In this document: piece by piece, positions 17,675 to 35,902 of the stretch | Layout of the letters: each line of letters begins with the position of its first letter | Position numbering within the stretch: the stretch's first letter is position 1 | Program-made: the position numbers and the translations under genes | Assembly (NCBI RefSeq): GCF_002020355.1 | Contig: NZ_MPZV01000001.1 | Location: forward strand, 1,054,001 to 1,118,000 | DNA: 64,000 bases | Direction of reading: 5' to 3' | Source: Thioclava sediminum | GTDB lineage: Bacteria; Pseudomonadota; Alphaproteobacteria; Rhodobacterales; Rhodobacteraceae | Notes under the pieces: generated by a model | Told to the model about the DNA's origin: nothing | Database searches by the model: none | The model's input: the letters and a program-made list of their open reading frames with translations, nothing else

Positions 17675-17702
17675 CGGCATCTCCTTGGGTTATATACCAG
17701 AA

Positions 17703-17904: not shown

Positions 17905-18825
17905 TCAAACGTCGCGCTGCACGTCTTCAAGCACCTCGGCCAGCACCGACACGGCCAGCAGCCGCGGATCGCGCGCGGATTGGATCAGCCCGATCGGCCC
18001 ATGAACCCGCGCGCGCGTCGCCGCGTCGATACCGCGAGCTTGCAAACCTTCCTGCCGCCGGCTTTGCGTGCGCACGCTGCCTTGTGCCCCGATGTAGAAT
18101 GCGGGGGTTGCGAGCGCCGCCTCGAGAATATCCAGCTCCCAATCGTGGTCGTGAAACAGAAGGATCACCGCCGTGCGCGCGTCGATGGCCACGTCTGAGG
18201 GGATCGCGCTTCGGTCCAACCTGCGCACCGTGCAGCCTGCACCTTCGGCATTGGCGAAAGTGGCATCTTCGGGCGTGAGCAAAAGATGCGGCGCGCCGGT
18301 GGCCCGCACCAGATCGGCGAAGAACACCGCCTCAGCGCCGGCGCCGAAGATCACGAAGCGCGGCTCGGGGCGAAAGGCGATACGCAGTTCTCCCGGCGCG
18401 TCGGGGGTCTCGTCTTCCTGCATCAAACGCAAGCCACCCGAGGCGCTCAGTCCCAAGGCCGCCTCCGCGCGGCGCGCCCGCCTTGCCGCAAGCTCGCGAA
18501 GCAAAGAACGGTCCGGCGCGGGGATCACCGTAACCTCGAGCGCGCCGCCGCAGGGCAGCTTCAGATCGAAAAAGGGCGAACCGGCCCCATAGCGCAGCTT
18601 GCGCACCTGCCCGTCGGCCAGCGCCGCGCGCGCATGTTCGACCACATCTTCTTCGATACAACCTGAGCTGAGCGCTCCGAAGCGCCGACCATCCGGCAAG
18701 ATCGCCATCGCGGTGCCGACATTGCGATAGGCCGGACCTTCGATGGCAGAGATCACCGCGATCGCGCCGGGTACGTCGGACCTTGCCAGTTCGAACCACG
18801 GATCTTGCGCGGCGGGATGGGTCAC
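17905..18825 (-). CDS. xdhC: XdhC-family molybdenum hydroxylase maturation protein
   Basis: 306 residues. The N-terminal XdhC/CoxI domain contains GTAMAILPDGRRFGALSSGCIEEDVVEHA, the typical SGC-E motif. The C-terminal Rossmann domain contains RFVIFGAGAEAVFFADLV, then VILLFHDHDWELDILEAAL and YIGAQGS. XdhC proteins bind molybdenum cofactor and help sulfurate and insert it into xanthine-dehydrogenase-type enzymes. No good ATG is present; the GTG before THPAAQDPW has GAGGGG six bases upstream. It is the last gene of the operon encoding the hydroxylase. Confidence 0.88.
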   Translation of the reverse strand: MTHPAAQDPWFELARSDVPGAIAVISAIEGPAYRNVGTAMAILPDGRRFGALSSGCIEEDVVEHARAALADGQVRKLRYGAGSPFFDLKLPCGGALEVTVIPAPDRSLLRELAARRARRAEAALGLSASGGLRLMQEDETPDAPGELRIAFRPEPRFVIFGAGAEAVFFADLVRATGAPHLLLTPEDATFANAEGAGCTVRRLDRSAIPSDVAIDARTAVILLFHDHDWELDILEAALATPAFYIGAQGSVRTQSRRQEGLQARGIDAATRARVHGPIGLIQSARDPRLLAVSVLAEVLEDVQRDV

Positions 18826-18835
18826 GGCTGGCCCC

Positions 18836-20008
18836 TCAATCGTTCGACCCAGCCAGCGCGCGATGCGCGACCTCGACGAAGAACTGCACGCCCAGCGGCA
18901 GGATCGCATCGTTGAAATCGTAATGTGGGCTATGCAGGTTGCGCCCGCCCTCGGCCGATCCATTGCCGATCCAGCCGTAAGCGCCGGGCACCTTCTCCAG
19001 CAGGAAGGCGAAATCCTCGCTCGCCATGCTGGGTGCGTAATCGACCTGCACCGCGTCGCGTCCCACGATGGCCTCGGCGGCGCGGCGTGCGGTTTCGGCG
19101 GCCTCGGCATCGTTGATCGTGGCCGGGTAGCGACGCTGATAGATCAGCTCGGCCTTGGCATGAAATGCCTCGGCGATCATTTCGGCGCGGCGCGTCATCT
19201 CGGCCTGAACGAAATCGCGCGTCGCGGGGCGCAGGGTGCGCACAGTGCCGTGCAGGGTCACTTCGTCGGGGATCACATTGAGCGTGTGGCCCGCATGGAT
19301 CTGCGTGACCGAGATCACCGTCGCATCGGTCGGATCCACCGCGCGGCTGACGATGGTCTGCCAGGCCATCTGCAATTGCGCGGCCAGCGTGATCGGGTCG
19401 ATCCCCTCATGCGGCATCGCGCCGTGCGAGCCCTTGCCCATCACCTTCAGCTCGAACGTGTCGAATGCGGCCATGACGGGGCCCGCGCGCATCGCGATCT
19501 TGCCCGCCTCGAGGCCCGGCCAGTTATGCAGCGCAAAGGTGCTGTCGAGCGGGAACTGGTCAAGCAACCCATCCTCGATCATCACCCGCGCGCCGCCTTC
19601 GTTTTCCTCGGCGGGCTGGAAGATGAACACCACCGTGCCGGGCCCCGGTGGATCGGCCGCCATTGCCTGCGCGGCGCCCAGCAGCATCGTGGTGTGACCG
19701 TCATGACCGCAGGCATGCATCTTGCCGGGGATCTCGGAGGCATAGTCCGCCCCGGTCAGTTCGGAGATCGGCAGCGCATCGATATCGGCGCGCAGGCCGA
19801 CGGTCGGCCCCTCGCCATTTCGCAGAACGCCGATCACCCCGGTCCCGGCCAGCCCCTCGTGGACCTCAAGTCCGAACGCGCGCAACTCAGCCGCGATGAA
19901 GGCGGCGGTCTCGTGTTCTTCGAAGGCCAGTTCGGGGCGGCGATGCAGCGCGTGCCGCCATTCGACCAACTGGTCTTCCATCGCCTTGATCGCCGGGGTG
20001 ATATTCAT
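18836..20008 (-). CDS. M20 family amidohydrolase (hippurate hydrolase/aminoacylase-like)
   Basis: 390-residue zinc metallohydrolase of the M20D group, which cleaves N-acyl amino acids and related amides. Visible metal and catalytic motifs are GLRADIDALPI, KMHACGHDGHTTMLLGAA, FQPAEENEGGARVMIEDG and FALHNWPGL; the dimerisation domain has GKGSHGAMPHEGIDPI. No signal peptide, so cytoplasmic. Start at MNITPAIK with AAAGGA upstream; the longer frame is shadow. Its presence in a molybdenum-hydroxylase operon suggests that an amide bond is cut before or after hydroxylation; this is inference. Confidence 0.88.
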   Translation of the reverse strand: MNITPAIKAMEDQLVEWRHALHRRPELAFEEHETAAFIAAELRAFGLEVHEGLAGTGVIGVLRNGEGPTVGLRADIDALPISELTGADYASEIPGKMHACGHDGHTTMLLGAAQAMAADPPGPGTVVFIFQPAEENEGGARVMIEDGLLDQFPLDSTFALHNWPGLEAGKIAMRAGPVMAAFDTFELKVMGKGSHGAMPHEGIDPITLAAQLQMAWQTIVSRAVDPTDATVISVTQIHAGHTLNVIPDEVTLHGTVRTLRPATRDFVQAEMTRRAEMIAEAFHAKAELIYQRRYPATINDAEAAETARRAAEAIVGRDAVQVDYAPSMASEDFAFLLEKVPGAYGWIGNGSAEGGRNLHSPHYDFNDAILPLGVQFFVEVAHRALAGSND

Positions 20009-20019
20009 CGCGCGTCCTT

Positions 20020-20610
20020 TCAACCAAAGAGCCAGCAGATCCCAAGCCCGAGGCCAAGACCGACCAGAAGCCACGCCACGCGATCGATCAGCGGGATATG
20101 TCCAGCCGCCGCAGTGGCCACCGCGCCCGTCGGGGCGGCGCCTTCGCTTGACGGAGCGGTCTCTTCAGCCTCGCCGGTCACGACCCGCGAGAAGGCGTTG
20201 AAGAAATCCTCGGCATTCTTGCGCGCCACGCCCTGGATCAACCGCCCGCCGACCGCGGCCAGTTTACCGCCAACCTCGACATCGGCGACATAGGACAAAC
20301 GCGTGCCCTCGCCTTCGGGCGCGAGCTTGATTTCCGCGCCGCCCTTGGCGAAGCCCGCAGGCCCGCCCTGCCCGCGCCCGGTGATCCGGTAGGACACGGG
20401 CGGAACCAGATCGCTCAGCTCCACCTTGCCGCGAAAGCTGGCCGAGACGGGGCCGACCCGCGCCACGACCGTGGCGGTATATTCGGCCTCACCCGTCTGC
20501 TCCATCGCTTCGCAACCCGGGATCGCGCGGCGCAGCACCTCGGGGTCGTTGAGCCCGCGCCAGACCGTTTCGGGATCGGCCGGGATCAGGTGATCGCCTT
20601 CGAACCGCAT
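20020..20610 (-). CDS. CoxG-like SRPBCC protein with C-terminal membrane anchor
   Basis: 196 residues. The first ~145 are the CoxG/SRPBCC domain (MRFEGDHLIPADPETVWRGL, then AIPGCEAME, FRGKVELSDL, and GGRLIQGVARKNAEDFF). A spacer rich in Ala, Thr and Glu leads to one hydrophobic C-terminal segment, VAWLLVGLGLGLGICWLFG. In CO dehydrogenase systems CoxG anchors the enzyme to the membrane, and the tail here fits that role. ATG at 20610 has GGAGG seven bases before it; the GTG one codon earlier is an alternative. The preceding stop overlaps it as TGATG. Confidence 0.88.
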   Translation of the reverse strand: MRFEGDHLIPADPETVWRGLNDPEVLRRAIPGCEAMEQTGEAEYTATVVARVGPVSASFRGKVELSDLVPPVSYRITGRGQGGPAGFAKGGAEIKLAPEGEGTRLSYVADVEVGGKLAAVGGRLIQGVARKNAEDFFNAFSRVVTGEAEETAPSSEGAAPTGAVATAAAGHIPLIDRVAWLLVGLGLGLGICWLFG

Positions 20611-21503
20611 CACCCGGCCTCCGCATGGATCGCGTTATAGGCACGGTAGAGCGCCTGCGTGCCCTCTTCGCCGAAGCCGTCATCCACCAGCTTGCCATAG
20701 AGGCTGCGCGCCAGCGACAGGCCCGGCAGTTCGAGGCCCAGTCTTTCGGCTTCGCTCAGCGCGATGGACATGTCCTTGACGAAGTGGTGGACGAAGAAGC
20801 CGGGCGCGAAATCCTCGTCCACCATCTTCGGTCCAAGCCCGTTGAGCAGGAAGCTCGACGCGGCTCCGGTTCCGATGACTTTGAGAACCTGCATCGGATC
20901 CAGACCGGCGGCGCGCGCGTAGCTGATGCTTTCCGCGACCGCGAGCATGGTCGAGGCGATGGCGATCTGGTTGGCCATCTTGGTGTGCTGCCCAGCGCCC
21001 GCCTTGCCCATCAGCGCGATATTCCCGCCCATCAGCTCCAGCACCGGCAGGACCCGTTCGAACGCCCGCGCATCGCCGCCCAGCATGATCGCGAGCTTGC
21101 CCGCCTTCGCGCCGACATCGCCGCCGGAGACCGGGGCGTCGAGCGCAGAGAGGCCGCGCGCGAGAGCCGCCTGCGCGATTTTCCCGGCCAGGGCGGGGCT
21201 CGAGGTGGTCATGTCGATCAGCACCGAGCCCGGGCGCGCCTTGCCGATGATCCCCTCCTCACCGAGGTAGACCTGTTCGACATCGGCGGGGTAGCCCACG
21301 ATGGTGATCGTGATATCGCTGGCCTCGGCCACGGCGCCCGGGCTGTCACACCACGTCGCCCCCTTCGCGACGAGGGCGTCGCCCTTGGCGCGGGTGCGGT
21401 TGTAGATGTTGAGCGGATGCCCCGCGGCGAGGATATGCCCCGCCATGTGCTGGCCCATGATTCCGAGTCCGATGAAGCCGACGCTGAGTTTCTCTTCTGT
21501 CAC
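20610..21503 (-). CDS. NAD(P)-dependent beta-hydroxyacid dehydrogenase (3-hydroxyisobutyrate dehydrogenase family)
   Basis: 297 residues. Rossmann motif VGFIGLGIMGQHMAGHIL at the N-terminus, the canonical substrate loop LDAPVSGGDVGAKAGKL near residue 120, and the catalytic Lys in GAGQHTKMANQIAIAS. This is the standard form found in tartronate-semialdehyde reductase and 3-hydroxyisobutyrate dehydrogenase. Starts with GTG, overlapping the upstream stop as GTGA, with AAAGGA before it. In this operon it would reduce or oxidise a C3/C4 hydroxyacid semialdehyde from the unknown substrate; exact reaction not deducible. Confidence 0.87.
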   Translation of the reverse strand: MTEEKLSVGFIGLGIMGQHMAGHILAAGHPLNIYNRTRAKGDALVAKGATWCDSPGAVAEASDITITIVGYPADVEQVYLGEEGIIGKARPGSVLIDMTTSSPALAGKIAQAALARGLSALDAPVSGGDVGAKAGKLAIMLGGDARAFERVLPVLELMGGNIALMGKAGAGQHTKMANQIAIASTMLAVAESISYARAAGLDPMQVLKVIGTGAASSFLLNGLGPKMVDEDFAPGFFVHHFVKDMSIALSEAERLGLELPGLSLARSLYGKLVDDGFGEEGTQALYRAYNAIHAEAG

Positions 21504-23878
21504 GGCTGGGTCCTTTTCGTTGAGCTGGGCGCGGCCTCCCGCAGGAGCGCGCGAATGGATTGGGGGGTCAGCGGAAGACGCTCGATCGTCACGCCGCGCG
21601 GCGCGAGCGCATCGCTCACCGCGTTGGCGAGCACGCCGATCGCGCCCATCACGCCGCCTTCGGCCATGCCCTTGATCCCCGCGGGGGTCCGGCGGTTCGG
21701 CGTGTTGTGATGCAGGATTTCGAATTTCGGCAGTTCGTTCGGGGAGGCCACGAGGTAATCGGCGAGCGTCGCGGAGAGGTTCTGCCCCGTGCCGTCGTAG
21801 ATCACCTGTTCGAGCAGCGCGCCGCTCAGCCCCATCGCGATCGCGCCCTGCTGCTGGCCGCGCACGACGATCGGGTTGAGAACGGTGCCGGAATCCTCGG
21901 CAACGAGATAGCGGTCGATGGTGATAGCCCCGGTCTGCGGGTCGACCTCGACCTCGCAGGCATGGGTCGAGTTGGAATAGGTCATCGCGGGCGGGTCGTA
22001 GCTATGCGAGAAATCGAGCCCCGGCGCGATCCCTTCGGGAAGCGCCAGCGGATCGAGATAGGCACGCCGCGCGATATCGACCAGCGCCAGGCCAGTGCCC
22101 TGCCAGTCGTCGCCGATCATCCGTTCGATCTGGCCTGCGCGCATGCGCAGCCCGCCAGCATCGTTGAGATCGAGCATCGAGGCAGCAATCGCGAGCACCC
22201 GCTCGCGCGCCTTGAGCGCACAGAGATAAAGCGTCCCGCCCCCGGCAGTCGCGCCGCGTCCGCCGCGGCTGCCCATGCCGTAGGGTGCGATATCGGTGTT
22301 GCCCATATGGACCGTGACATCTTCCGAGCGCACGCCGAGCCCTTCGGCCACCGCCTGCGAAAGCGGGCTCTCGTAGCCCTGCCCAGTGCCCATCAGCCCG
22401 ACGGAGGCGTTGACCGCCCCGCTCGGTTCGATCCGCACCCAAGCCGATTCATGGCCCGATCCTGGGATGCCGGCGGATTTGTAGAATTCCGAGCCATAGG
22501 TCGTGCTCTCGATCACCGTGCACAGCCCGAGCCCCAGATAGCGCCCCTCAGCGCGCGCCTGCGCCTGCCGCGCGCGGAAAGCCGCGACATCAATCACATC
22601 CACGGCGATCTCGAGCGTTTCCCGTGGGCTGACATCTTCGAGAAGTTCGCCCGTGGGCATCTTGTAGGGCAGATCCTCCGGGCCGAGCGCGTTGATACGG
22701 CGCACCTCGACCGGGTCGAGACCGAGGTCGCGGGCGATGGCGTCGATCGTGCCCTCCATCACCCAGCTCGTGATCGCCATGGGCGCGCGCATCGGGCCTG
22801 CGCCGCATTTATTGGTCAGCGCGACGCGGACCTCATAGGCGTAGTCCTGAATCCGGTAGGGACCGGTCATGATCAGGGCGATGACGCGGGCCATATAGTT
22901 GGCCGGGTAGAAGCAGTAGCCGCCGAAATCCTCGTCGATCTCCAACTCGAGACCGAGAATCCGTCCGGTTTCGCTGACCGAGGCTCGGGTGCGACACTCG
23001 TATTCCCGCGCATGGGCGGCGGACATCAGGTTTTCCATCCGATCCTCGCGCCACCGAACCGGGCGGCGCAGGTGTCGAGACAGAGCCGCGACCGTGAGTT
23101 CCTCGCGATAGAGCGCGATCTTCTGACCGAAGGCGCCGCCCACATCGGGGCTCATCACCGTAACCTGGCTTTCCGACAGACCCAGCCGCGCAGCAAGCTG
23201 GCTGCGCAACGGGTGCGGGACCTGATTGCCGATATGCATGTTCAGATGCGCGCGCCCGTCATCCCAATCGGCGACGCAGCCGCGCGTCTCCAGCGGGACA
23301 TGGGTGTGGCGATGGAGCGAGAAACGGGCCTCGACGACGCGATGCGCCTCGGCCCGGCGCGCGGCAGGATCGCCTACGCACAGGCTTTGATGCGAGACCA
23401 TGTTGCTGGTCAGGCTGTCGTCGACCAGAGCGGCATCGGGTGCGAAGGCCTCGGTGATCGAGGTCACCGCCGGAAGCTGGTCATATTCGACACTGACACA
23501 TTCCGCGGCATCCTCGGCGAGGTAACGATCGGTCGCGACGACGCAGACCACCGGATCGCCGTGGAAGCGGACCTTGTCGATCGGAAGCGTCGTCAGTTCG
23601 GTCGGCTGCAGCCCCTCGATCGGCGGTGCGAGGCGCAGCCGCGTCGTCATCTGATCGAGATCGCGCCCGGTGAAAATCCCCACGACCCCCGGCATTTCAG
23701 CGGCTTCGGCGCTGTCGATGTCGAGGATGCGCGCATGGGCGTGGGGCGAACGCACGAAGCTCACATGCAGCGCGCCGGGAAAGGCGAGGTCGTCGAGATA
23801 ACGCCCGCGACCGGAGACGAGGCGCCGATCTTCCTTGCGCGGCAGGGCGCGACCGATCTCGGTGAAATCGCCGCTCAT
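21500..23878 (-). CDS. molybdenum hydroxylase large subunit (xanthine dehydrogenase family, CoxL-like)
   Basis: 792 residues, the molybdopterin-binding subunit that carries out hydroxylation. N-terminal IGRALPRKEDRRLVSGRGRY is typical of aldehyde oxidase/CoxL-type subunits. The Moco-binding parts include DVGGAFGQK, GMGSRGGRGATAGGG and QQGAIAMGLSGALLEQ. The catalytic Glu is in KGMAEGGVMGAIGVL. The active-site loop reads NKCGAGPMRAP (Cys358) instead of the AYRGAGR of common members or the AYRCSFR of true CO dehydrogenase, so it is not a CO dehydrogenase. The start MSGDFTEIG overlaps the small-subunit stop by ATGA. Confidence 0.93.
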   Translation of the reverse strand: MSGDFTEIGRALPRKEDRRLVSGRGRYLDDLAFPGALHVSFVRSPHAHARILDIDSAEAAEMPGVVGIFTGRDLDQMTTRLRLAPPIEGLQPTELTTLPIDKVRFHGDPVVCVVATDRYLAEDAAECVSVEYDQLPAVTSITEAFAPDAALVDDSLTSNMVSHQSLCVGDPAARRAEAHRVVEARFSLHRHTHVPLETRGCVADWDDGRAHLNMHIGNQVPHPLRSQLAARLGLSESQVTVMSPDVGGAFGQKIALYREELTVAALSRHLRRPVRWREDRMENLMSAAHAREYECRTRASVSETGRILGLELEIDEDFGGYCFYPANYMARVIALIMTGPYRIQDYAYEVRVALTNKCGAGPMRAPMAITSWVMEGTIDAIARDLGLDPVEVRRINALGPEDLPYKMPTGELLEDVSPRETLEIAVDVIDVAAFRARQAQARAEGRYLGLGLCTVIESTTYGSEFYKSAGIPGSGHESAWVRIEPSGAVNASVGLMGTGQGYESPLSQAVAEGLGVRSEDVTVHMGNTDIAPYGMGSRGGRGATAGGGTLYLCALKARERVLAIAASMLDLNDAGGLRMRAGQIERMIGDDWQGTGLALVDIARRAYLDPLALPEGIAPGLDFSHSYDPPAMTYSNSTHACEVEVDPQTGAITIDRYLVAEDSGTVLNPIVVRGQQQGAIAMGLSGALLEQVIYDGTGQNLSATLADYLVASPNELPKFEILHHNTPNRRTPAGIKGMAEGGVMGAIGVLANAVSDALAPRGVTIERLPLTPQSIRALLREAAPSSTKRTQP

Positions 23879-24372
23879 GCCGCCTCTCCACGCATCCGGG
23901 CCGCAGCTTTTAGCACGGCGGCGACGATATTCTGATAGCCCGTGCAGCGGCACAGATTGCCCGACAGGACATCGCGCACCTCTTCTGCGGTGGGGTCCGG
24001 GTTCTCGCGCAGGTAATGCTCGAAGGTCACCACAATACCGGGCGTGCAGAAACCGCATTGCAGCCCATGTTCCTCGTGCAGCGCCTGCTGAAGCGCCGAG
24101 AGCGCATCAGGCCGTCCCGTGGCCTCGACCGTCGTGACCTCGTGGCCCTCCATCTGGGCGGCGAAGGTCAGGCAGGCGCGCGCGGGGCGGCCGTCGATCA
24201 GCACGGTGCAGGCGCCGCAGACGCCGTGTTCGCAGCCGACATGGGTACCGGTCAGGCCGAGGTCGTCGCGCAGCACATCCGAGAGCAGCTTGCGCGCGGG
24301 CACCCGAACGTCGTGGGTTTCGCCGTTCACGCTCAGCGAAAGCGTCAGGGGGTCGTGTGTCGGAGCGGTCAT
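23875..24372 (-). CDS. molybdenum hydroxylase small subunit, two [2Fe-2S] clusters (CoxS-like)
   Basis: 165 residues. The plant-ferredoxin cluster is bound by GCEHGVCGACTVLIDG plus the Cys of ARACLTF; the second cluster by QCGFCTPG and NLCRCTGYQNIV. Electrons pass from the molybdenum centre through these to FAD on the medium subunit. GGGAGGAGG stands before the ATG, which also overlaps the medium-subunit stop. A longer upstream frame is only a shadow. Normal length and complete cysteine set. Confidence 0.94.
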   Translation of the reverse strand: MTAPTHDPLTLSLSVNGETHDVRVPARKLLSDVLRDDLGLTGTHVGCEHGVCGACTVLIDGRPARACLTFAAQMEGHEVTTVEATGRPDALSALQQALHEEHGLQCGFCTPGIVVTFEHYLRENPDPTAEEVRDVLSGNLCRCTGYQNIVAAVLKAAARMRGEAA

Positions 24373-25238
24373 GCACCCTCCTCCCGGGTCAGAGCGGACT
24401 GGAACGCGCGAATGACAAGCGTTTCGGCAAGTTCCCGGCGATAGACCGCGGGCACCTGTTCGCTGTCTTCGGGCGCGATCGCCGCAGCAGTCGCGGCAGC
24501 GAGGTCGCGAATGGTGTCTTCGTCGGCCAGCCTGCCCTGCGCGCGCGCCTCGATCTCGGGCAGGCGCAGCGGGACGGTGTCGACGCCGCCGAGCCCGAGC
24601 CGCAGCGCATCGATCTTGCCCTCCGCGTCGCGCGCGAAACTGAGCGCGACGCTGACCAGCGCGAAATCGCCGTGACGGCGCGAGAAAGCCTCGAAGGCCC
24701 ACCGATCGCCGACGGGGAGCGGAAAGCGCAGCGCGGTGATGAGTTCGCCATCGCGCAGATCTACCGTCATGATCGATTGCAGGAAATCGGCGGCGGCGAC
24801 TTCGCGCGTGCCTGCCGGTCCCGAAATCACCAGCGTCGCACCCAGCGTGACCGCGATCAGCGGCAACTGGGCAGCGGGGTCCGCATGGGCGAGGCTGCCG
24901 CCGATCGTACCGCGCTGACGGATCGCGTAATGCCCGATCGAGGCGGCAGCGGCACCGAGGAGCGGCAAGCTCCGCTGCACTTCCGGCGCATTGGCCAGCC
25001 GGTGATGGCGCGTCAGCGCGCCGATCTCCAGCATGTCCTCCTTCACCCGCACGCGGTCCAACTCGATCAGATCGTTGAGATCGATCAGATGGCCCGGGCG
25101 CGCCAGCCGCATATTCAGCATCGGCCCTAGGCTTTGCCCTCCGGCGATCGGCTTGGCCGCCGGCCCATGCGTGCGCAACAGCGCCAATGCCTCGGCAAGG
25201 CTCGCAGGCCGGTGGTAGGTGAAAGGGGCGGGTTTCAT
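24369..25238 (-). CDS. molybdenum hydroxylase medium subunit, FAD-binding (CoxM-like)
   Basis: 289 residues of the FAD-binding subunit. The flavin motifs are AGGQSLGPMLNMRLARP (about 32-48) and TIGGSLAHADPAAQL (about 112-126). It passes electrons from the iron-sulfur subunit to the acceptor, which is unknown here; a quinone is likely if CoxG anchors the enzyme. It is the first hydroxylase gene, starting four bases after the importer ATPase gene, and overlaps the small subunit by ATGA. Confidence 0.93.
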   Translation of the reverse strand: MKPAPFTYHRPASLAEALALLRTHGPAAKPIAGGQSLGPMLNMRLARPGHLIDLNDLIELDRVRVKEDMLEIGALTRHHRLANAPEVQRSLPLLGAAAASIGHYAIRQRGTIGGSLAHADPAAQLPLIAVTLGATLVISGPAGTREVAAADFLQSIMTVDLRDGELITALRFPLPVGDRWAFEAFSRRHGDFALVSVALSFARDAEGKIDALRLGLGGVDTVPLRLPEIEARAQGRLADEDTIRDLAAATAAAIAPEDSEQVPAVYRRELAETLVIRAFQSALTREEGA

Positions 25239-25242
25239 CGTG

Positions 25243-26352
25243 TCAGGCCGCGTTCCAGATCAGCGACTGACCGGTTTCGCGGTCGAAGACATGCAGGCGG
25301 TTGAGGTCCACCGCGAGGGTGATGCTCTCGCCGAACGCATGGCGCAGATCCTTGCCGACGCGGAAGAACAGCTCCTCGCCGCCGAAATCCATGCCGAGAT
25401 ACTGATCCGAGCCAACCGGAAGCACTGAGTTCACGGTGCCGCTGAGGGCATTGTATCCCGGCTCGGCAGTGCCTTCTGCGACATCCTCGGCCCGGATACC
25501 CAGTCGCACCGCGCGCCCCTCCTGCCCTTTCAGGCGCGCCGCGTGATCTGCCGGCAGCACGAGACGCAACCCATCGCGAACGAAGGCCATCTCGTCATCC
25601 GGCCCGGCCTCGAGCACGCCGTCGAAATAGTTGATCGGCGGGCTGCCGAGGAACGACGCCACGAAGGTGTTCGCCGGGCGCTCGTAGATGTCGTCGGGCG
25701 TGCCGATCTGCTGCACGACCCCGTCATTCATCACGACGATACGATCCGCGAGCGTGAGCGCCTCGGCCTGATCGTGGGTCACGTAGACGAAGGTGGTCTC
25801 CATCGCGCGGTGGAGTTCCTTGATCTCTGCCCGCATCGAGATCCGCAGCGCCGCGTCGAGGTTCGACAGCGGCTCATCCATCAGGAAGACCGACGGGTCA
25901 CGGACCATCGCCCGCCCCAGCGCCACACGCTGACGCTGGCCGCCCGACAGCTGCGACGGACGGCGGTCGAGCAGGTGCGAAATCTCGAGCTTCTTCGCGG
26001 CGTCTTGCACGCGCTCGTCGATCTCTTCCTTCGACGCGTTGCGCATTTTCAGCCCGAAGCCGATATTGTCGTAGACGGTCTTGTGCGGGTAGAGCGCGTA
26101 GCTCTGGAACACCATCGCGACGTCGCGCTTGTGCGGGGGGACGTAGTTCACGACCTGCTCGTCGAAGATCAGATCGCCGTCCGAGACCTCCTCGAGCCCT
26201 GCAATCATGTTGAGGGTCGTGGATTTGCCGCAGCCCGAGGGGCCGAGCAGGACGATGAACTCGCGATCCTCGATATCGAGGTTGAGATCGCGCACGGCAT
26301 GGAAGCCGTTGGCGTATTTCTTGTTTACGTTGGTGAAGCGGATCCGGGCCAA
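25243..26352 (-). CDS. ABC transporter ATP-binding protein, UgpC/MsiK type, TTG start
   Basis: 369-residue CUT1-type ATPase. Walker A GPSGCGKST (about 38-46), Q-loop in MVFQSYALYPHK, signature LSGGQRQRVALGRA, Walker B VFLMDEPLSNLDAA, then the C-terminal OB-fold domain. The start codon is TTG: no ATG or GTG is available before the conserved N-terminus ARIRFTNVNKKYANG, and AAAGGA sits eight bases upstream. It energises the two permeases encoded just before it and is followed within four bases by the hydroxylase genes. Confidence 0.9.
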   Translation of the reverse strand: MARIRFTNVNKKYANGFHAVRDLNLDIEDREFIVLLGPSGCGKSTTLNMIAGLEEVSDGDLIFDEQVVNYVPPHKRDVAMVFQSYALYPHKTVYDNIGFGLKMRNASKEEIDERVQDAAKKLEISHLLDRRPSQLSGGQRQRVALGRAMVRDPSVFLMDEPLSNLDAALRISMRAEIKELHRAMETTFVYVTHDQAEALTLADRIVVMNDGVVQQIGTPDDIYERPANTFVASFLGSPPINYFDGVLEAGPDDEMAFVRDGLRLVLPADHAARLKGQEGRAVRLGIRAEDVAEGTAEPGYNALSGTVNSVLPVGSDQYLGMDFGGEELFFRVGKDLRHAFGESITLAVDLNRLHVFDRETGQSLIWNAA

Positions 26353-26365
26353 GACTTTGTCCTTT

Positions 26366-27331
26366 CTAACCTTTGACAGCCCCGGCGGTCAGACCGGAAA
26401 CGATGTAGCGTTCGAAGACGATGGCGACGATCACCGGCGGCACGACCGCCAGGACGCCAGCGGCGTTGAGGAAGGAGAAGCTCACCGTGAAATCGGAGGT
26501 GAACGAGGCCAGCAGGATCGGCAGGGTCTGCGACGCGGAGGTCTGCGTGAACATCAGCGCGAGCAGGAATTCGTTCCAGCTGGTAAGGAAGGTAAAGAGG
26601 ACCACGGCGACGAGCGAGGGCAGCGAGAGCGGCAGGAACACCTTGATCAGCGCCTGGAGCCGCGAACAGCCATCGACCCGCGCGGCCTTGTCCAGCTCGT
26701 CCGGGAGGCCCTCGAAATACTGGATCAGGATGAAGACCGTGAAGGGCACCGTGATCGCGAGATAGGTGATCACCAGCGATCCGAGCGTATCGAGCATCCC
26801 GAGTTTGCGGATCACCAGGAAGAACGGCACGACCAGCGCGATATCGGGGATCACCCGCGTGATCAGGATGAAATAGACCGACGCGTTGCGTCCCCAGAAC
26901 CGGATTTTCGCGATCGCATAGGCGGCCGGCACCCCGACGAGCAGGTTCAGGATCACCACCAGGATCGAGACGATCAGGCTGTTGGCCATCGACGGCAGGA
27001 GATTCTCTGCGGTGGAGGGGATGAAGTCACCGGCAGCCGGATCGGCGCCCGAGCGCGTCTCGTAGGTGACGGGCTCGTCGTTCCCGGCGGAGAAGATCGC
27101 CTCGAAATTGCGCAGGGTCGGTTCTTCGGGAATCCAGTGCGGCGGGATCGAGACGATCTCGGTCTCGGTCTGGAACGCCGAGGAGACGAGCCAGGACACC
27201 GGGGCGAGAATGTAGGCCGCAAGGACGATCGCGGAAACCACGATCACCAAGCGCTGCACGATGCGCCCGATTTTCTGGCGGCGGCGGTAGTCGATCGTGT
27301 CGACAGGCGGGGTGATAGGCATATCGCTCAT
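26366..27331 (-). CDS. ABC transporter permease, MalG type
   Basis: 321 residues, six predicted spans. The EAA loop is ELDKAARVDGCSRLQALIKV, and the ending RYIVSGLTAGAVKG is typical of MalG partners. A large periplasmic loop (about 65-115) follows span 1. The ATG lies one base after the stop of the companion permease. Belongs to the importer of the molybdenum-hydroxylase operon. Confidence 0.9.
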   Translation of the reverse strand: MSDMPITPPVDTIDYRRRQKIGRIVQRLVIVVSAIVLAAYILAPVSWLVSSAFQTETEIVSIPPHWIPEEPTLRNFEAIFSAGNDEPVTYETRSGADPAAGDFIPSTAENLLPSMANSLIVSILVVILNLLVGVPAAYAIAKIRFWGRNASVYFILITRVIPDIALVVPFFLVIRKLGMLDTLGSLVITYLAITVPFTVFILIQYFEGLPDELDKAARVDGCSRLQALIKVFLPLSLPSLVAVVLFTFLTSWNEFLLALMFTQTSASQTLPILLASFTSDFTVSFSFLNAAGVLAVVPPVIVAIVFERYIVSGLTAGAVKG

Positions 27332-27332
27332 G

Positions 27333-28244
27333 TCAGATCTTGCGCCCCAGCGTTCGGATGAAGAGGTAGGAGAGTGCGAAAGTCGCGATTGCGAGGAGGT
27401 AGGACATCGCAGCACCGCTCCCGAAGGACAGGTTGCGGAAGGTCTCGACATAGATGTGCCACGAAAGCACATGCGACGCGCTGCCGGGCCCGCCCTCGGT
27501 CAGGATGAAGAACAGGTCGAAATGGCGGATCGCCATCATCGTCTCGTAGATCATCACCAGCATGAAACCGGGCTTCATCGCCGGCAGGGTGACATGCACG
27601 AAGCGCTGCCAGACCGTCGCTCCATCGACGCGCGCCGCCGCATAGAGATCGGACGGGATCGACTTGAGCGAGACCAGCAGAAGGATCGTCGCCAGCGGCA
27701 CTTCCTTCCAGACGAAGGCATTGGCAATCAGGAACAGCGTTTTGTCCTGATCCCCCAGCCAGACCATGTATTTGTCGATGAAATCGAGCTGGTAGAGCAG
27801 GCCGTTCAGCGCGCCATAGCTGGAATCGTAGATCCATTTCCACATCAGCGCGTTCGCGACATAGGGGATCGCCCACGGCACCAGAAGGATCGTCGACAGG
27901 ATACGACGCCCGCGGAATTCTTGGTTCAGCAGCAGCGAGACAAGCAAGGCTATGAAAGCAATCGCGGTGACCGAGACGAGCGAGAAACTCACCGTGCGCC
28001 AGACCGCGCCCCAGAACGCCTCATCGCCGAGAAGATCGGTATAGTTCTTCAGCCCGACGAAGGGGGTCCGGTTCGGACGCGTCAGTTTGATGCTGAAGAA
28101 GCTGATATAAAGCGAATAGGCGATCGGGAAGACCGCAACCGCGCCCAGAACGGCCATGACAGGAGCAAGAAACAGCATGGCGCTGCGCTCCTCGTATCCC
28201 ACTCGCCATTTCGGGCGTGTCGCCCGTGTCATTGCATTCGCCAC
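27333..28244 (-). CDS. ABC transporter permease, MalF type
   Basis: 303 residues, six spans, EAA loop DLYAAARVDGATVWQRFVHV. I use GTG at 28244 (MANAMTRATRPK), seven bases after GGGAGAG; an in-frame ATG four codons on is possible. It is separated from the binding-protein gene by 65 bases that hold a perfect 12-bp hairpin. Confidence 0.88.
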   Translation of the reverse strand: MANAMTRATRPKWRVGYEERSAMLFLAPVMAVLGAVAVFPIAYSLYISFFSIKLTRPNRTPFVGLKNYTDLLGDEAFWGAVWRTVSFSLVSVTAIAFIALLVSLLLNQEFRGRRILSTILLVPWAIPYVANALMWKWIYDSSYGALNGLLYQLDFIDKYMVWLGDQDKTLFLIANAFVWKEVPLATILLLVSLKSIPSDLYAAARVDGATVWQRFVHVTLPAMKPGFMLVMIYETMMAIRHFDLFFILTEGGPGSASHVLSWHIYVETFRNLSFGSGAAMSYLLAIATFALSYLFIRTLGRKI

Positions 28245-28309: not shown

Positions 28310-29641
28310 TCAGTAGCTGTCCTTCAGCTCGTTCCACAGATCGGCAGATTTCTTGACCGCTCCGGCGGGATCGACATTGCCGAGGATCGCCGATTGCCAG
28401 GCCGACCCATTGGTGTCGTTCCACTCGCCGAACCAAGGGGTCACCGTGTCCTTCTTGCGAGCGAGCGCCTGCTGAGCCTGGATCATGTCGACATCGCCAT
28501 AGGAGTCGTAGGCCGCGCGGATCTCGGGATCCTCGAACAGCGGCTTCACGCCGAACCCGGCGCCGATATCGAGGAACAGGAGTTTCTGGAACGTGTAGGC
28601 GCCATCCGCCTTGCCGCCGAACCATTCGATCAGCTTCGCGGCATTCTCGGCGCGTTCTTTGTCTTGTGCAGCCTGCGCCGACATGCCGTGGAAACGCATC
28701 CAGCCGACCGTCGCGTGAGAGCCGTTCGGGCCTTGCGGCATCATCGCCTGCTTCACATTGCCCGCGATCTGCGACTGCTCGGGATCGTTGAGCATCCGCA
28801 GACGGTATTTCGCGACCATCGCGAAGGCGTGGTTGCCCGCTGCGAAGGATTTCAGGCCAGCCAGTTCGCCGGTCTCGACACAGGCGGGCGAGACGATCTC
28901 GTGCTTGTTGACCGCATCGACGACCCAGCTCAGCGCCTCGACGGCCCCCTCTTTGGGGTCCTGCATCACGGCCATGCCGTTGTCGTCGACCAGACGGCCA
29001 CCATGCGAGTAGACCAGCGTCGAGATGAACTCGATCAGCCAGCTTTCCTGCGCCATCGCGAGCATCATCGGATAGTCGGCAATGCCCTTCTCTTTCATGA
29101 CGAGCGACTGCTCGACCAGCTCATCCCAGGTTTCCGGCGGCGCGTCGAAGCCGGCTTCCTTGAGCTTCGCCTCGTCATAGAAGAAGGCCATGTAGTCGGT
29201 GTAATAAGTCAGGCCGTACTGACGACCGCCATAGGTCATGGAGTCGGTGCAGAAATCCTCGGCCTCGGCGTTGTATTTCATCAGGCTGTCGAACTCGTCG
29301 ACCGGGGCGATCCAGCCGGCTTCGGCCCATTCGGGCAGCCAGGAATCCGACACCCACATCGCGTCGAGCGGCGCACCGCCCACGAATTTCGCGACCATGC
29401 CCTCGCGGTATTGGGCCCAGGGCGAGTTACCGTAATTGACCGGAATCCCGGTTTCCTTGGTGAAGGCGCTGAGGTGGCTCTGCACGGTGTCGACCGCGGC
29501 CGACCAGGTGTGCATCGTCAGCGCGGCCGTTTCGGCCTTGGCCGGACGAACCAGACCCGGCGCCATCAGCGCCCCTGCGCCCGCCGCCGAGTAGCGGAGG
29601 AAATCCCGGCGCCCGAGACGGCGCGTCTTATCCTTGAGCAT
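28310..29641 (-). CDS. Tat-exported extracellular solute-binding protein of CUT1 importer
   Basis: 443 residues. The N-terminus RRLGRRDFLRYSAAGAGALM is a twin-arginine signal, ending around RPAKA before ETAALTMHTW. The rest is a family 1 binding protein (VDTVQSHLSAFTKETGIPVN, GLTYYTDYMAFFYDEAKLKE). Tat export means it folds in the cytoplasm, less usual for CUT1 proteins. AAAGGA lies before the chosen ATG; the in-frame ATG 15 codons earlier lacks a site. It is the first gene of the eleven-gene operon and lies downstream of a TetR-type operator. Confidence 0.9.
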   Translation of the reverse strand: MLKDKTRRLGRRDFLRYSAAGAGALMAPGLVRPAKAETAALTMHTWSAAVDTVQSHLSAFTKETGIPVNYGNSPWAQYREGMVAKFVGGAPLDAMWVSDSWLPEWAEAGWIAPVDEFDSLMKYNAEAEDFCTDSMTYGGRQYGLTYYTDYMAFFYDEAKLKEAGFDAPPETWDELVEQSLVMKEKGIADYPMMLAMAQESWLIEFISTLVYSHGGRLVDDNGMAVMQDPKEGAVEALSWVVDAVNKHEIVSPACVETGELAGLKSFAAGNHAFAMVAKYRLRMLNDPEQSQIAGNVKQAMMPQGPNGSHATVGWMRFHGMSAQAAQDKERAENAAKLIEWFGGKADGAYTFQKLLFLDIGAGFGVKPLFEDPEIRAAYDSYGDVDMIQAQQALARKKDTVTPWFGEWNDTNGSAWQSAILGNVDPAGAVKKSADLWNELKDSY

Positions 29642-29757
29642 CTTTCGATTCCTTTTGCATGGCCGCCTCAGCCCGAGCCCGTTCAAAGCCCAACCTGCAG
29701 CAAGCCGTCCCTGTTGATCTTGTTTATGGGAACCGACGCTATTGGCGATTTATTTAT

Positions 29758-29771
29758 TCGTCAACTGACGA
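29758..29771. promoter_or_regulatory. TetR-type operator, copy 1 (molybdenum-hydroxylase operon)
   Basis: TCGTCA-AC-TGACGA, a perfect 6-2-6 palindrome, 117 bases before the binding-protein start codon in an AT-rich gap of 239 bases (29642-29880). The same half-sites recur at 30675-30688 upstream of the tetR gene, which identifies the likely regulator. Confidence 0.78.
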
Positions 29772-29880
29772 CAAACGAAAAAGTGAGGATTTCCCTTCCG
29801 CAACGGAAATCGCACAAAATTTCAGCGCCCGCGGAAGCCTCCGCAGGCGAAATCAGGGAAAATGTAGTGGATTGCAGCGC

Positions 29881-30606
29881 TCAGCGGCCGCTGCACACCT
29901 CGACCATGTCCTCGAATCCCGCGAGGAACACGCGAACATGCATCGTTACCACCTGGTCTTCGGAGAGCGACAGGCTGCTTTGATAGATATGGCGTCGAAT
30001 CGCGTAGTGAGAGATCGCACCGTGCAACGTCCACGCCATTTCGCGGAGCAATGCGGGATCTTCCGGCAGCTCTACGCCCCGCTCATGCGCAACTTCGCGC
30101 ATCACAGTCTCCAGCAACTGCATGACAATCGCCGCGATGTAGTCAGGCGCCATATTCGCCTCGGCCAGCGAGGCATAAAGGAACAGTCGCAACCACTTCC
30201 GGGTCAAGGTAGACTGAAGATAGTCGCGATAGAATGCGTCGAGGCGCACGGCCATGGGCTGCGAACGATCCTGAAGCTCAACGAACCAGACGGCCTTGAA
30301 AGCACCAAGAATCTCTCGGTTATAGACCTCTTTGAGCAGGTCTTCCTTGGTCGGGAAGAAGCGATAGAGAAGACGCTGGGAGATGCCGCATTTCTCCGCC
30401 AATTGGCGCGTCTGCCCCGCAAGCCCGTTCTCCGCAAAGAACTCGGTGGCGACGTCCAAGATCTGAGCGCGACGCTCATTGAACGGCATGCGCACAGCGC
30501 CTTGCGGCGAGCCGGGCTTATTTCCGGCGCCGTTCGTTTTGGACGAACCTTCAGTCATTTTGGGCTTGGTCTGCACGTTTTCCTCTTGGCATCCTTTGTT
30601 GTTCAT
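29881..30606 (-). CDS. TetR-family transcriptional regulator
   Basis: About 241 residues from the chosen ATG (MNNKGCQEEN); other in-frame starts at 30642 and 30558 are possible, as no ribosome site is convincing. After a disordered N-terminal tail of about 30-45 residues comes the TetR helix-turn-helix: RRAQILDVATEFFAENGL then CGISQRLLYRFFPTKEDLLK. The C-terminal ligand domain is all-helical and not assignable. It is divergent from the NIPSNAP gene and lies upstream of, and in line with, the hydroxylase operon. Identical palindromes flank it on both sides. Confidence 0.9.
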   Translation of the reverse strand: MNNKGCQEENVQTKPKMTEGSSKTNGAGNKPGSPQGAVRMPFNERRAQILDVATEFFAENGLAGQTRQLAEKCGISQRLLYRFFPTKEDLLKEVYNREILGAFKAVWFVELQDRSQPMAVRLDAFYRDYLQSTLTRKWLRLFLYASLAEANMAPDYIAAIVMQLLETVMREVAHERGVELPEDPALLREMAWTLHGAISHYAIRRHIYQSSLSLSEDQVVTMHVRVFLAGFEDMVEVCSGR

Positions 30607-30674
30607 TCCGACGCCGGACGCAACGACTTCAGGTTCATACATTAGCCCATTCCGCGCGAAGGCAAAGTATCTTT

Positions 30675-30688
30675 TCGTCACTTGACGA
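30675..30688. promoter_or_regulatory. TetR-type operator, copy 2 (tetR/NIPSNAP divergent promoter)
   Basis: TCGTCA-CT-TGACGA, the same half-sites and spacing as copy 1, and flanked alike (T before, C after). It lies between the divergent tetR and NIPSNAP genes. A further everted palindrome of the same half-site (TGACG-GGA-CGTCA) is at 30734-30746. Confidence 0.78.
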
Positions 30689-30784
30689 CTTATGTGTTGC
30701 GAAAACCCAAAGTTTGGTCGTAGCTTCGGCGCGTGACGGGACGTCAGTGCCCGCGATTTTCTGCCATTCACGCCGGAGTCCAAC

Positions 30785-31096
30785 ATGATCTACGAACAAA
30801 GAACCTACCGCATCACCCCCGGGAAGGCGCCCGAGTTCCTCAAGCTCTATGAAGCCGAGGGCCTGCACATCATCACCCAATACGCGAAGCTTGCCGGATG
30901 CTGGGTCAGCGACAGCGGCGTACTCAACGCGGTCACCTTCCTCTGGGCCTATGAAGATTACGGCCACCGCAGCGCGCAACGCGCCAAGCTGGGCGCTGAC
31001 CCGGAATGGCAGGCTTTCGTGCCCAAGATCCTGCCCTATCTCGTGCATCAAGAGAGCATCTTCCTGCAGCCCGCGGCCTTCTCGCCGCTCGACTGA
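30785..31096 (+). CDS. NIPSNAP family protein
   Basis: 103 residues forming one ferredoxin-like NIPSNAP domain: MIYEQRTYRITPGKAPEFLK at the start, then GLHIITQYAKLAGCWVSDSG and FLWAYEDYGHRSAQRAKL. Bacterial NIPSNAP proteins are often found in catabolic operons for aromatic or heterocyclic compounds, with no established reaction. It leads a two-gene transcript with the MocA-like gene and shares the TetR operator region. Cytoplasmic; complete at normal length. Confidence 0.88.
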   Translation: MIYEQRTYRITPGKAPEFLKLYEAEGLHIITQYAKLAGCWVSDSGVLNAVTFLWAYEDYGHRSAQRAKLGADPEWQAFVPKILPYLVHQESIFLQPAAFSPLD

Positions 31097-31113
31097 TCCG
31101 GGCCCGGGCCACC

Positions 31114-31695
31114 ATGCGCACGCTTGGCATCCTCCTCGCCGCCGGCGCCTCGCGTCGGTTCGGCGCTCGGGACAAGCTTCTTGCAGATTGGAACGGCGCC
31201 CCTTTGGTGCTGGCAGCGGCGCGCGCGCTCGAGGCGTCGGGATGCGATGCGCTCGTGGCGATCGTCTCTTCCGAGAGGGTCGCCGTTTCTCTCCCGCCGT
31301 CGTTCAAGGTGCATCACGTGGCACCGGGCCTGCCGCTCTCCGAGAGCTGGCGAGCGGCGCGCGGCGTCGCAACGAGCCGCCGGGCAGAACGTGCGCTGTT
31401 CGTGCTGGGCGACATGCCTTTCGTTTCAACCGACACGCTCCGCGCCTTGGTAAATAGCGATGGCGGCAGCCGCGCCTGCACCTTCGACGGTATCCCGATG
31501 CCGCCGGCGCTTCTGACCGCGCAGGACTCGAGACACGCACCCGATCAGGACGGAGATCACGGCGCCCGGGAGCTGTTGCGCGCCCTGCCGCCCAAGTCGC
31601 TCATCCCCCTTTCAGCCGAAGAGGCGAGTGACATCGACACGCCCGAAGACCTCCGCCATCATCGGGTTAACGTCAGGCGTGAGGATCGTGCCTGA
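31114..31695 (+). CDS. MobA/MocA-like molybdenum cofactor nucleotidyltransferase
   Basis: 193 residues with the nucleotidyltransferase signature LAAGASRRFGARDKLL at the N-terminus and VLGDMPFVSTDTLRAL (metal-binding GDMP) in the middle; SDIDTPEDL near the end is standard for the family. MocA transfers CMP to molybdopterin to make the cytosine dinucleotide form used by xanthine-dehydrogenase-type enzymes. That fits the large subunit encoded on the opposite strand and suggests a dedicated maturation step. A longer upstream frame overlaps the NIPSNAP gene; the ATG giving MRTLGILL is the family start. Confidence 0.88.
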   Translation: MRTLGILLAAGASRRFGARDKLLADWNGAPLVLAAARALEASGCDALVAIVSSERVAVSLPPSFKVHHVAPGLPLSESWRAARGVATSRRAERALFVLGDMPFVSTDTLRALVNSDGGSRACTFDGIPMPPALLTAQDSRHAPDQDGDHGARELLRALPPKSLIPLSAEEASDIDTPEDLRHHRVNVRREDRA

Positions 31696-31832: not shown

Positions 31833-32921
31833 TCAGCTTTTCGTCCCGATCTCATCGAGTGCGCGGCAGAGCCGTTCCGTAACCTGCTCGGTGCTGGCTG
31901 TGCCGCCGAGGTCGCGCGGGCGACTCTCGGGATCGGCTGTCACGACCTCGATCGCGCGCATCATTTGCGCCTCGGCCTCGGTCTCTCCCAGATGCCCCAG
32001 CATCATTGCAGCACTCCAGAAGGTGCCGATGGGATTGGCGACGCCCTTGCCGGTGATATCGAAGGCCGAGCCGTGGATCGGCTCGAACATCGACGGCGCG
32101 GCGCGTTCGGGGTTGAGATTGGCCGTGGGGGCGATGCCGATGGAGCCCGCGAGCGCCGCTGCCAGATCCGAGAGGATGTCGGCGTGGAGGTTCGTGGCGA
32201 CGATCGTGTCGAGCGAACGCGGGCCGAGCGTCATGCGCACGGTCATCGCGTCGACCAGCATCCGGTCCCATGTCACGTCGGGAAACTCGGTCGCGACCTC
32301 GGCGGCGATCTCGTCCCACAGCACCAACCCGTAGCGCTGCGCGTTGGATTTCGTCACCACCGTCAGACGCTTACGCGGGCGCGCCTGAGCCTGCGAGAAG
32401 GCCACGCGCATGATGCGCTCGACGCCGGTGCGGGTGAAGATGGCGGTCTCGGTAGCGACCTCATGCGGCTGGCCGCGATGGCTGCGCCCGCCCTGCCCCG
32501 CATATTCGCCCTCGGAGTTCTCGCGCACGATCAGCCAGTCCAGATCTTCCGGACCGACACCCGCAAGCGGGCTCGACAGGCCCGGCAGGATACGGGTGGG
32601 CCGCAGGTTCGCATATTGATCGAGCCCCTGACAGATCGCGAGGCGCAGCCCCCAGAGCGTCAGGTGATCGGGCACGTCCGGAGCGCCGACCGCGCCGAAT
32701 AGGATCGAGTCATAGGCTCGCAGTGCATCGACCCCATCTGCGGGCATGAATGTGCCCTCGCGCTGAAAGCGTTTCGAGCCCCAGTCGAAGCGGTCGACCT
32801 CGAGCCGGAACGCGTTGGTCTGGCGGCTCAGGTGGTCAAGCGCCGTCAATGCCGCGTCGACCACCTCCGGCCCGATCCCGTCGCCGGGGATGGCCGCGAT
32901 ACGATGAACCCGGGTCGTCAT
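31833..32921 (-). CDS. isocitrate/isopropylmalate dehydrogenase family, tartrate/D-malate dehydrogenase type
   Basis: 362 residues. The NAD-dependent decarboxylating dehydrogenase motifs are AAIPGDGIGPEVVDAA, IVRENSEGEYAGQGG, a catalytic Lys in VVTKSNAQRYG and the metal site DILSDLAAALAGSIG. The ENSEGEYAGQGG form is that of TtuC/DmlA, which act on tartrate, D-malate or 3-isopropylmalate. In a tetronate cluster it may oxidise a four-carbon 2-hydroxy dicarboxylate. It is the last gene of the leftward operon, seven bases after the SDR gene. Confidence 0.88.
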   Translation of the reverse strand: MTTRVHRIAAIPGDGIGPEVVDAALTALDHLSRQTNAFRLEVDRFDWGSKRFQREGTFMPADGVDALRAYDSILFGAVGAPDVPDHLTLWGLRLAICQGLDQYANLRPTRILPGLSSPLAGVGPEDLDWLIVRENSEGEYAGQGGRSHRGQPHEVATETAIFTRTGVERIMRVAFSQAQARPRKRLTVVTKSNAQRYGLVLWDEIAAEVATEFPDVTWDRMLVDAMTVRMTLGPRSLDTIVATNLHADILSDLAAALAGSIGIAPTANLNPERAAPSMFEPIHGSAFDITGKGVANPIGTFWSAAMMLGHLGETEAEAQMMRAIEVVTADPESRPRDLGGTASTEQVTERLCRALDEIGTKS

Positions 32922-32928
32922 GGCCGCA

Positions 32929-33771: not shown

Positions 33772-33814
33772 GGGATTTCTCCTTTTTTCGTTCGGTGTCC
33801 GAGATCGGCGCGCC

Positions 33815-34840: not shown

Positions 34841-34962
34841 GACGCTTTCCTCCAATTCCTTTCGGGCAAGCCCGAGTCAATGACCCAGAAATGCACCTAG
34901 CGGCAGCGTTTTCATAGGCCATACGTGCATGGGCGCTAAAAACATCGCGGGGACCGTGGCGA

Positions 34963-35856: not shown

Positions 35857-35902
35857 TTCAGTCTCCGTTTCGTTCATTCACATTTGGTTCGACGGGACGG
35901 CC

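Follow-up and report, generated by a model that had tools for sequence, protein, structure and literature searches.

Paired palindromic operators predicted to place an importer/molybdenum-hydroxylase operon and a NIPSNAP gene under one TetR-family regulator in Thioclava sediminum and related bacteria

In Thioclava sediminum, a tetR gene is located between an eleven-gene operon coding for an ABC importer and a molybdenum hydroxylase, and a divergent NIPSNAP gene. An exact palindrome TCGTCA-N2-TGACGA stands on each side of tetR. Very probably, as far as can be judged from sequence comparison, the TetR protein represses the operon, its own gene and the NIPSNAP gene through these two operators and is released by a ligand. 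The sites, their positions, their conservation in related bacteria and the overlap with promoter-like boxes on the operon side are read directly from the DNA.

Organisation of the locus

The window, i.e., the whole stretch of 64,000 nucleotides that was analysed, contains both palindromes exactly where the initial annotation had placed them (Table 1). Site 1 lies about 116 bp ahead of the first importer gene and about 110 bp past the tetR stop, and site 2 lies between the starts of tetR and the NIPSNAP gene. The operon proposed in the same annotation is supported by Pfam: eleven co-directional minus-strand genes occupy the stretch between 29641 and 17905, and with the starts given in the table no gap between them exceeds 65 bp. 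No terminator was found after the XdhC gene, so the end of the operon rests on gene spacing.

Table 1. Genes, predicted operators and promoter-like boxes of the locus (window coordinates)
Feature	Coordinates	Strand	Basis
XdhC-type maturation factor	17905..18804	-	Pfam XdhC_CoxI, XdhC_C on longer frame
M20 amidohydrolase (HipO / IAA-amino-acid hydrolase type)	18836..20011	-	TIGR01891, 358 bits, cut-off 154; PDB 1xmb
CoxG, C-terminal hydrophobic tail	20020..20613	-	Pfam COXG; translation
Beta-hydroxyacid dehydrogenase	20610..21503	-	Pfam NAD_binding_2/11; NCBIfam below cut-offs; PDB relatives
CoxL-type molybdenum subunit	21500..23881	-	Pfam MoCoBD_1/2; PDB 1t3q, 503 bits
CoxS-type [2Fe-2S] subunit	23875..24375	-	Pfam Fer2, Fer2_2
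CoxM-type FAD subunit	24369..25238	-	Pfam FAD_binding_5, CO_deh_flav_C
ABC ATPase (UgpC/MalK type)	25243..26352	-	NCBIfam NF008653, 462 bits, cut-off 432
ABC permease 2	26366..27331	-	Pfam BPD_transp_1 on longer frame 26366-27472
ABC permease 1 (UgpA-like)	27333..28244	-	Pfam BPD_transp_1; NCBIfam UgpA below cut-off
Extracellular solute-binding protein, RR-motif signal	28310..29641	-	Pfam SBP_bac_1
Inferred -10 box TAGCGT, 17 bp from -35 box	29736..29741	-	T22 A21 G13 C20 G15 T21 of 23 loci
Inferred -35 box TTGACG inside operator 1	29759..29764	-	T before TGACG in 23/23 operon loci
Operator 1, operon side, predicted	29758..29771	.	Exact palindrome TCGTCAACTGACGA; TCGTCA-N2-TGACGA
tetR regulator, 225 aa	29881..30558	-	Pfam TetR_N 1.4e-12; 25 named orthologs
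Operator 2, between tetR and NIPSNAP, predicted	30675..30688	.	Exact palindrome TCGTCACTTGACGA
Inferred NIPSNAP promoter TTGCGA-N18-TAGCTT	30697..30726	+	8 bp beyond operator 2
NIPSNAP protein	30785..31096	+	Pfam NIPSNAP; adjoins tetR in 25/25 loci
MocA-like nucleotidyltransferase (Thioclava addition)	31111..31695	+	Pfam NTP_transf_3 on longer frame 31006-31695

The protein encoded after NIPSNAP scores 61 bits against the curated MocA model TIGR03310, below its cut-off of 186. Since this model is the sole NCBIfam match at 1e-15, we kept the label MocA-like. The signal of the solute-binding protein carries the twin-arginine-like stretch GRRDFL, in which R11, R12 and F14 are invariant in an alignment of 18 sequences. 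This suggests that the protein may be exported by the Tat system. Stops in the translated stretch led us to drop locus L062 from this alignment and L051 from that of the NIPSNAP proteins; neither alignment includes L065 or several near-identical loci. For the solute-binding protein, the structure model reached a pLDDT of just 58 and could not be used; the substrate class is therefore judged from the enzyme families.

The genes flanking the locus look like separate units. At window positions 16294-17680, a SigJ-type sigma factor gene with a SnoaL-like C-terminal domain adjoins an AhpD/CMD-family gene, which is a known pairing. At 31833-37405, a tartrate dehydrogenase (TIGR02089 above cut-off), an SDR protein, a LacI regulator, an epimerase and a sugar ABC ATPase are encoded, and this is a separate sugar-acid cluster.

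Conservation of the palindromes in related loci

Nine TetR genes of 64-100% identity came out of a search through 390 genomes of the order, with a clear gap below them to 25 paralogous matches at no more than 41%. A profile built from the nine genes led to 25 named loci whose TetR ortholog shows 51-100% identity. These loci span Rhodobacteraceae, Rhizobiales and other alphaproteobacterial genomes; the genera include Thioclava, Maritimibacter, Actibacterium, Aliiruegeria, Thetidibacter, Psychromarinibacter, Antarcticimicrobium, Thalassovita, Roseibium, Ciceribacter and Neorhizobium, besides several MAGs.

The initial annotation had expected palindromes beside the tetR orthologs, and for each flank of tetR we scored the best motif match in the nearest 300 bp or so. 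An operator-like site was found on both sides in all 25 loci. The operon-side site never has more than one mismatch (23 exact, 2 with one). On the NIPSNAP side, 23 of the 25 sites have at most two mismatches (13 exact, 8 with one, 2 with two), and the remaining two, in L045 and L048, have three; as the best of some 300 positions, these two are weak taken singly. The same motif is recovered when no sequence is specified beforehand: when all perfect 6+6 dyads near tetR with spacers of 0-10 are searched for, whatever their sequence, TCGTCA-N2-TGACGA ranks first, with 13 of 25 loci upstream and 23 of 25 downstream of tetR.

We also aligned the operon-side region of 23 loci, which include four close Thioclava and three close Ciceribacter-type loci; L051 and L065, which have no operon, were left out. 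The operator columns carry 1.7-2.0 bits (0.8 at the first spacer base), and the columns outside the operator mostly carry 0.0-0.7 bits, i.e., the surrounding sequence has drifted. The two-base spacing given in the initial annotation holds, but the spacer is not entirely free, as all 23 operon-side sequences have T at its second position. The consensus is also longer than was proposed: A/T-rich flanks extend the palindrome to approximately AAGTCGTCA-N2-TGACGACTT.

Sites were also seen on other replicons. In Burkholderia cenocepacia both are present, one exact and one with a single mismatch. A plasmid of Ciceribacter thiooxidans carries an orthologous unit with both palindromes exact; its CoxL (L084:21788-24156) matches as two overlapping pieces, which points to a frame break or a sequencing error. 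On a plasmid of Paraburkholderia sp. FT54 (L083:24277-24290), a tetR ortholog (52%) lies among IS elements with a one-mismatch site directly ahead of it. An exact palindrome about 9 kb away on this plasmid precedes a set of TonB-dependent receptor, ExbBD and TonB genes, perhaps another regulon under the same regulator.

Occurrence of the palindrome across genomes

In the whole 4.13-Mb genome, the only exact copies of TCGTCA-N2-TGACGA are the two at tetR, and the reversed pattern used as a control has none. With up to two mismatches, one further site is found in the window (7987-8000); shuffling gives 3.4 such sites by expectation, so weight can be placed only on exactness and conservation. Outside the tetR locus, the genome contains six one-mismatch sites, versus three for the reversed control. 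According to their 2-kb surroundings, five of the six are inside long reading frames; the sixth (G000:C2:102359-102372) falls in the gap between two listed frames and is about 210 bp ahead of one of them. The AAG/CTT flanks are absent from all six. We treated these sites as background and not as extra regulon members, the sixth with less certainty.

In a scan of 380 genomes of the order, 45 have at least one exact copy. The nine genomes with a tetR ortholog hold 11 exact copies, and every one is at the tetR locus; two of the nine, G023 and G378, have none. The 371 genomes without the ortholog contain 41 exact sites, or 0.11 per genome. At this frequency, about 3e-6 pairs of exact sites within 1 kb are expected per genome. 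The palindromes could in principle be chance repeats, or RNA hairpins or terminators with no regulatory role. Site 2 is indeed flagged as terminator-like by a scan, though the number of such hits is at the shuffle level (2 found, mean 1.8). That reading has a negligible probability given the low expectation for pairs and the conservation of the sites across divergent loci amid drifting surroundings.

The reversed pattern occurs about 7 times in all 380 genomes (read from the table and summed by hand), so the palindrome is commoner than its control even where this TetR is missing. Another factor, or base composition, may also favour the palindrome there. One-mismatch sites outside the tetR loci of the nine tetR genomes are likewise more numerous than for the control (31 versus 16, hand count). 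The argument is built on location and conservation and not on rarity alone.

The distant TetR paralogs were compared as well, and 21 of the 25 matches were fetched for their neighbourhoods (L012-L032; 32-41% identity). Seventeen of the 21 loci are within 1.5 kb of CoxM/CoxS-like genes. GATCA-N2-TGATC dyads were found in 4 of 11 divergent intergenic regions of these paralogs, and another of the 11, in L016, has GACCA-N2-TGGTC. Apparently, the paralogs belong to a TetR subfamily tied to molybdenum hydroxylases, for which the dyads suggest a common two-base spacer. Such a spacer is also present in the RutR operator, on whose spacing no paper was found in the open-licence literature searched. Against solved TetR structures, the TetR profile gives weak matches (best E 2.5e-9).

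The surplus of exact copies in genomes without this TetR would fit a second explanation, in which an unlinked factor binds the palindromes and TetR binds elsewhere. We consider this very improbable: in the tetR genomes all exact sites are at tetR, the sites co-occur with tetR and the operon, and among the distant paralogs, other dyads share this two-base spacing. The preferred reading remains that the linked TetR acts on both sites.

Promoter-like boxes

On the operon side, the invariant T at the second spacer position and the -10-like block downstream of it (Table 1) suggest that the operon's -35 box probably falls within one half of the operator. A sigma-70 consensus scan did not report this promoter. 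The NIPSNAP side differs between groups of loci. By eye, 13 of 15 Rhodobacteraceae-type loci have TTGnnn about 8 bp beyond the operator and TAnnnT 17-18 bp further on, so that the operator abuts, rather than covers, the inferred -35 box. In all six Rhizobiales-type loci (L055-L060), the operator itself carries TTGACG-N17-CATnnT and overlaps the box (by eye).

An operator placed just upstream of promoter-like boxes, as in those 13 loci, could be that of an activator, and TetR might be an activator or a mixed activator/repressor, at least towards NIPSNAP. This is improbable, since the operon-side operator contains the inferred -35 box, the classical position for a repressor, and so does the NIPSNAP-side operator in the Rhizobiales-type loci. 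Repression therefore remains the favoured direction. Considering the weaker NIPSNAP-side site and the abutting -35 box of the Rhodobacteraceae-type loci together, the control of NIPSNAP could nevertheless be partial or even positive.

Conserved unit and its inheritance

The conserved unit consists of NIPSNAP, tetR, four importer genes and a CoxMSL-type enzyme, nearly always with a beta-hydroxyacid dehydrogenase and CoxG, and usually with M20. NIPSNAP is beside tetR in 25 of 25 loci, although broken in two. The start of the operon adjoins tetR in 23 of 25 loci, three of which (L061-L063) end at contig ends. All 20 loci reaching far enough have the solute-binding protein, both permeases, the ATPase, CoxM, CoxS and CoxL in the same order. 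The beta-hydroxyacid dehydrogenase comes next in 19 of these 20 and was not seen in L064. CoxG is found in 18; it was not seen in L050, and L064 has a CoxG-like gene beside NIPSNAP instead. By coordinate continuity, M20 adjoins the unit in 15 of 19 genomes, in 14 at the operon end and in one (L063) beside NIPSNAP; it is not beside the unit in L047, L048, L052 and L064. On the Burkholderia cenocepacia replicon, a porin gene, NIPSNAP and M20 come after the unit, all in the operon's direction. The porin-like gene there (L082:25737-26876) lies between CoxG and NIPSNAP.

The initial annotation had joined NIPSNAP and the MocA-like gene as a regulated pair and described the cluster as a self-contained unit with its own cofactor genes. 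NIPSNAP, the importer and the enzyme stand as conserved members. Just 4 of 25 loci, all of them Thioclava, have the MocA-like gene after NIPSNAP. Among six operon loci fetched beyond M20, one of which (L038) ends 1.3 kb past it, XdhC forms the operon end in two Thioclava loci only. The cofactor part of the claim therefore holds for Thioclava. In Aliiruegeria (L037), XdhC and MocA homologs are nearby on the other strand together with a second molybdenum hydroxylase. When 23 fetched loci, some of them overlapping, were compared with each other and with the window, no gene family outside the unit recurred in more than four of the compared sets; the commonest, found in four loci, was that of ABC ATPase paralogs.

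The CoxL ortholog is present in 7 of the 390 genomes of the order, and all seven have the TetR ortholog; no genome with CoxL and without TetR was seen among the 390. In the class at large, CoxL was found in 1 of 385 genomes, which is our own genome, so that count is uninformative. The pairwise identities of TetR and CoxL correlate with r = 0.92 (120 pairs of 16 loci chosen for complete TetR and CoxL stretches), and none of 2000 permutations gave a value as high. This indicates that regulator and enzyme were inherited together. Taken with the conserved sites, the comparative evidence supports the co-regulation of the operon, tetR and NIPSNAP that had been predicted.

Two loci have this arrangement only in part. 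The Defluviimonas MAG (L051, genome G020) and Allgaiera indica (L065, genome G023), which belong to one genus, keep tetR and both sites, and the importer/hydroxylase operon is absent there; neither is among the seven genomes with a CoxL match. The NIPSNAP gene has an in-frame stop in the first (L051:9357-9671) and a frame break in the second (L065:9360-9680). Apparently, NIPSNAP loses its use along with the operon. The decay in the two loci may be one event.

Enzyme classes and possible substrate

The molybdenum, FAD and two [2Fe-2S] domains of xanthine-oxidase family molybdenum hydroxylases were all found by Pfam. The division into separate molybdenum, FAD and [2Fe-2S] subunits is shared with CoxMSL/XDH-type hydroxylases such as quinoline 2-oxidoreductase (1t3q), CO dehydrogenase and 6-hydroxypseudooxynicotine dehydrogenase (7dqx). 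Unlike these, the Thioclava CoxL stays far short of the curated cut-off in all 13 NCBIfam models listed, and it reads TNKCGAGPMRAP at the alignment position of the CO dehydrogenase Cys loop. Assignment of CoxL as a form I aerobic CO dehydrogenase was rejected on the scores (544 versus 950 bits for NF040766, 493 versus 991 for TIGR02416) and on the differing loop. CoxG proteins tie molybdenum hydroxylases to the membrane. The dehydrogenase is of the tartronate-semialdehyde / 3-hydroxyisobutyrate / 2-hydroxymethylglutarate type, with 3cky among its PDB relatives.

We favour an N-heteroaromatic or aryl-amide compound as the substrate, a reading held only tentatively, since the importer type points to sugars. 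Under the same regulon, the unit could instead import and oxidise an amide sugar or a sugar-like aldehyde: its importer belongs to the maltose/glycerol-phosphate type, and the best NCBIfam matches of CoxM and CoxS, although below cut-off, are glyceraldehyde dehydrogenase subunits. The nearest solved relative of CoxL is, however, quinoline 2-oxidoreductase (503 bits, the next 434), and the M20 enzyme is of the IAA-amino-acid / hippurate hydrolase type. Sugar chemistry is somewhat less likely, and the N-containing substrate remains favoured by a small margin.

The fermentation of nicotinate by Eubacterium barkeri reportedly uses a molybdenum hydroxylase, a ring-opening amidohydrolase and 2-hydroxymethylglutarate dehydrogenase. 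The trio of enzyme classes is similar here, and the Thioclava dehydrogenase matches that last enzyme (3cky) among others. In contrast to that pathway, Thioclava has M20 and not an amidohydrolase-superfamily enamidase, and the unit has no ring reductase. We rejected a nicotinate-type pathway because Pfam found neither a ring reductase nor an enamidase in the unit. Nicotine clusters with molybdenum hydroxylases are regulated by the TetR proteins NicR2 and HpoR, and nothing was found on them in the open-licence literature searched. Common to them and the present locus would be a TetR regulator for a molybdenum-hydroxylase pathway acting on an N-heterocycle, but the gene sets differ.

Proposed mechanism and significance

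That TetR binds the two sites, that it represses and that a ligand acts on it are points we infer from the arrangement of the locus and its conservation. In the proposed mechanism, without ligand a TetR dimer (or dimer pair) on operator 1 would cover the -35 box and keep the eleven-gene operon off. TetR on operator 2 would damp tetR itself and the divergent transcript of NIPSNAP (plus the MocA-like gene). The pathway substrate or an early intermediate would then bind TetR, and both operators would be freed. The chemistry that follows is, as a whole, a guess of limited confidence: the ABC importer would take up an N-containing compound, CoxMSL would hydroxylate it and pass electrons to the membrane through CoxG, M20 would cleave an amide, the beta-hydroxyacid dehydrogenase would act on a semialdehyde or hydroxyacid, and NIPSNAP would serve the pathway as a dedicated enzyme or accessory.

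Control of this kind is well known. As with autoregulated TetR-family repressors, there is a two-fold symmetric site, a divergent gene, a site over a -35 box (here a predicted one) and an adjoining catabolic operon; unlike them, the system has its own extended operator, and its regulon joins a molybdenum-hydroxylase unit with NIPSNAP. A Bradyrhizobium system, that of B. diazoefficiens blr7984, was considered and dropped, since it concerns another TetR, beside a glutathione transferase gene (PMC5017801).

The controlled catabolic unit of importer, molybdenum hydroxylase and NIPSNAP was not found described in the open-licence literature searched, in agreement with the initial annotation, which had recognised no known pathway. 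Perhaps, and at somewhat less than even confidence, the unit represents an undescribed pathway that moves as one block among alpha- and betaproteobacteria with its own importer, membrane-linked molybdenum hydroxylase, amidohydrolase and repressor, in which NIPSNAP would be catalytic and TetR would belong to a molybdenum-hydroxylase-dedicated subfamily with a common dyad spacing. A catalytic role of NIPSNAP is suggested by its presence in all 23 operon loci, its orientation in the operon's direction in Burkholderia and its decay in the two operon-less loci.

The predicted operator, its overlap with the inferred promoter and the predicted regulon open this catabolic unit, found in marine and soil bacteria, to direct testing, and the operator could be used as a reporter for finding the inducing compound. 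The NIPSNAP family, of unclear function, spans bacteria to mitochondria. The tie of NIPSNAP to a molybdenum-hydroxylase pathway would thus be a handle on the role of bacterial NIPSNAP proteins.
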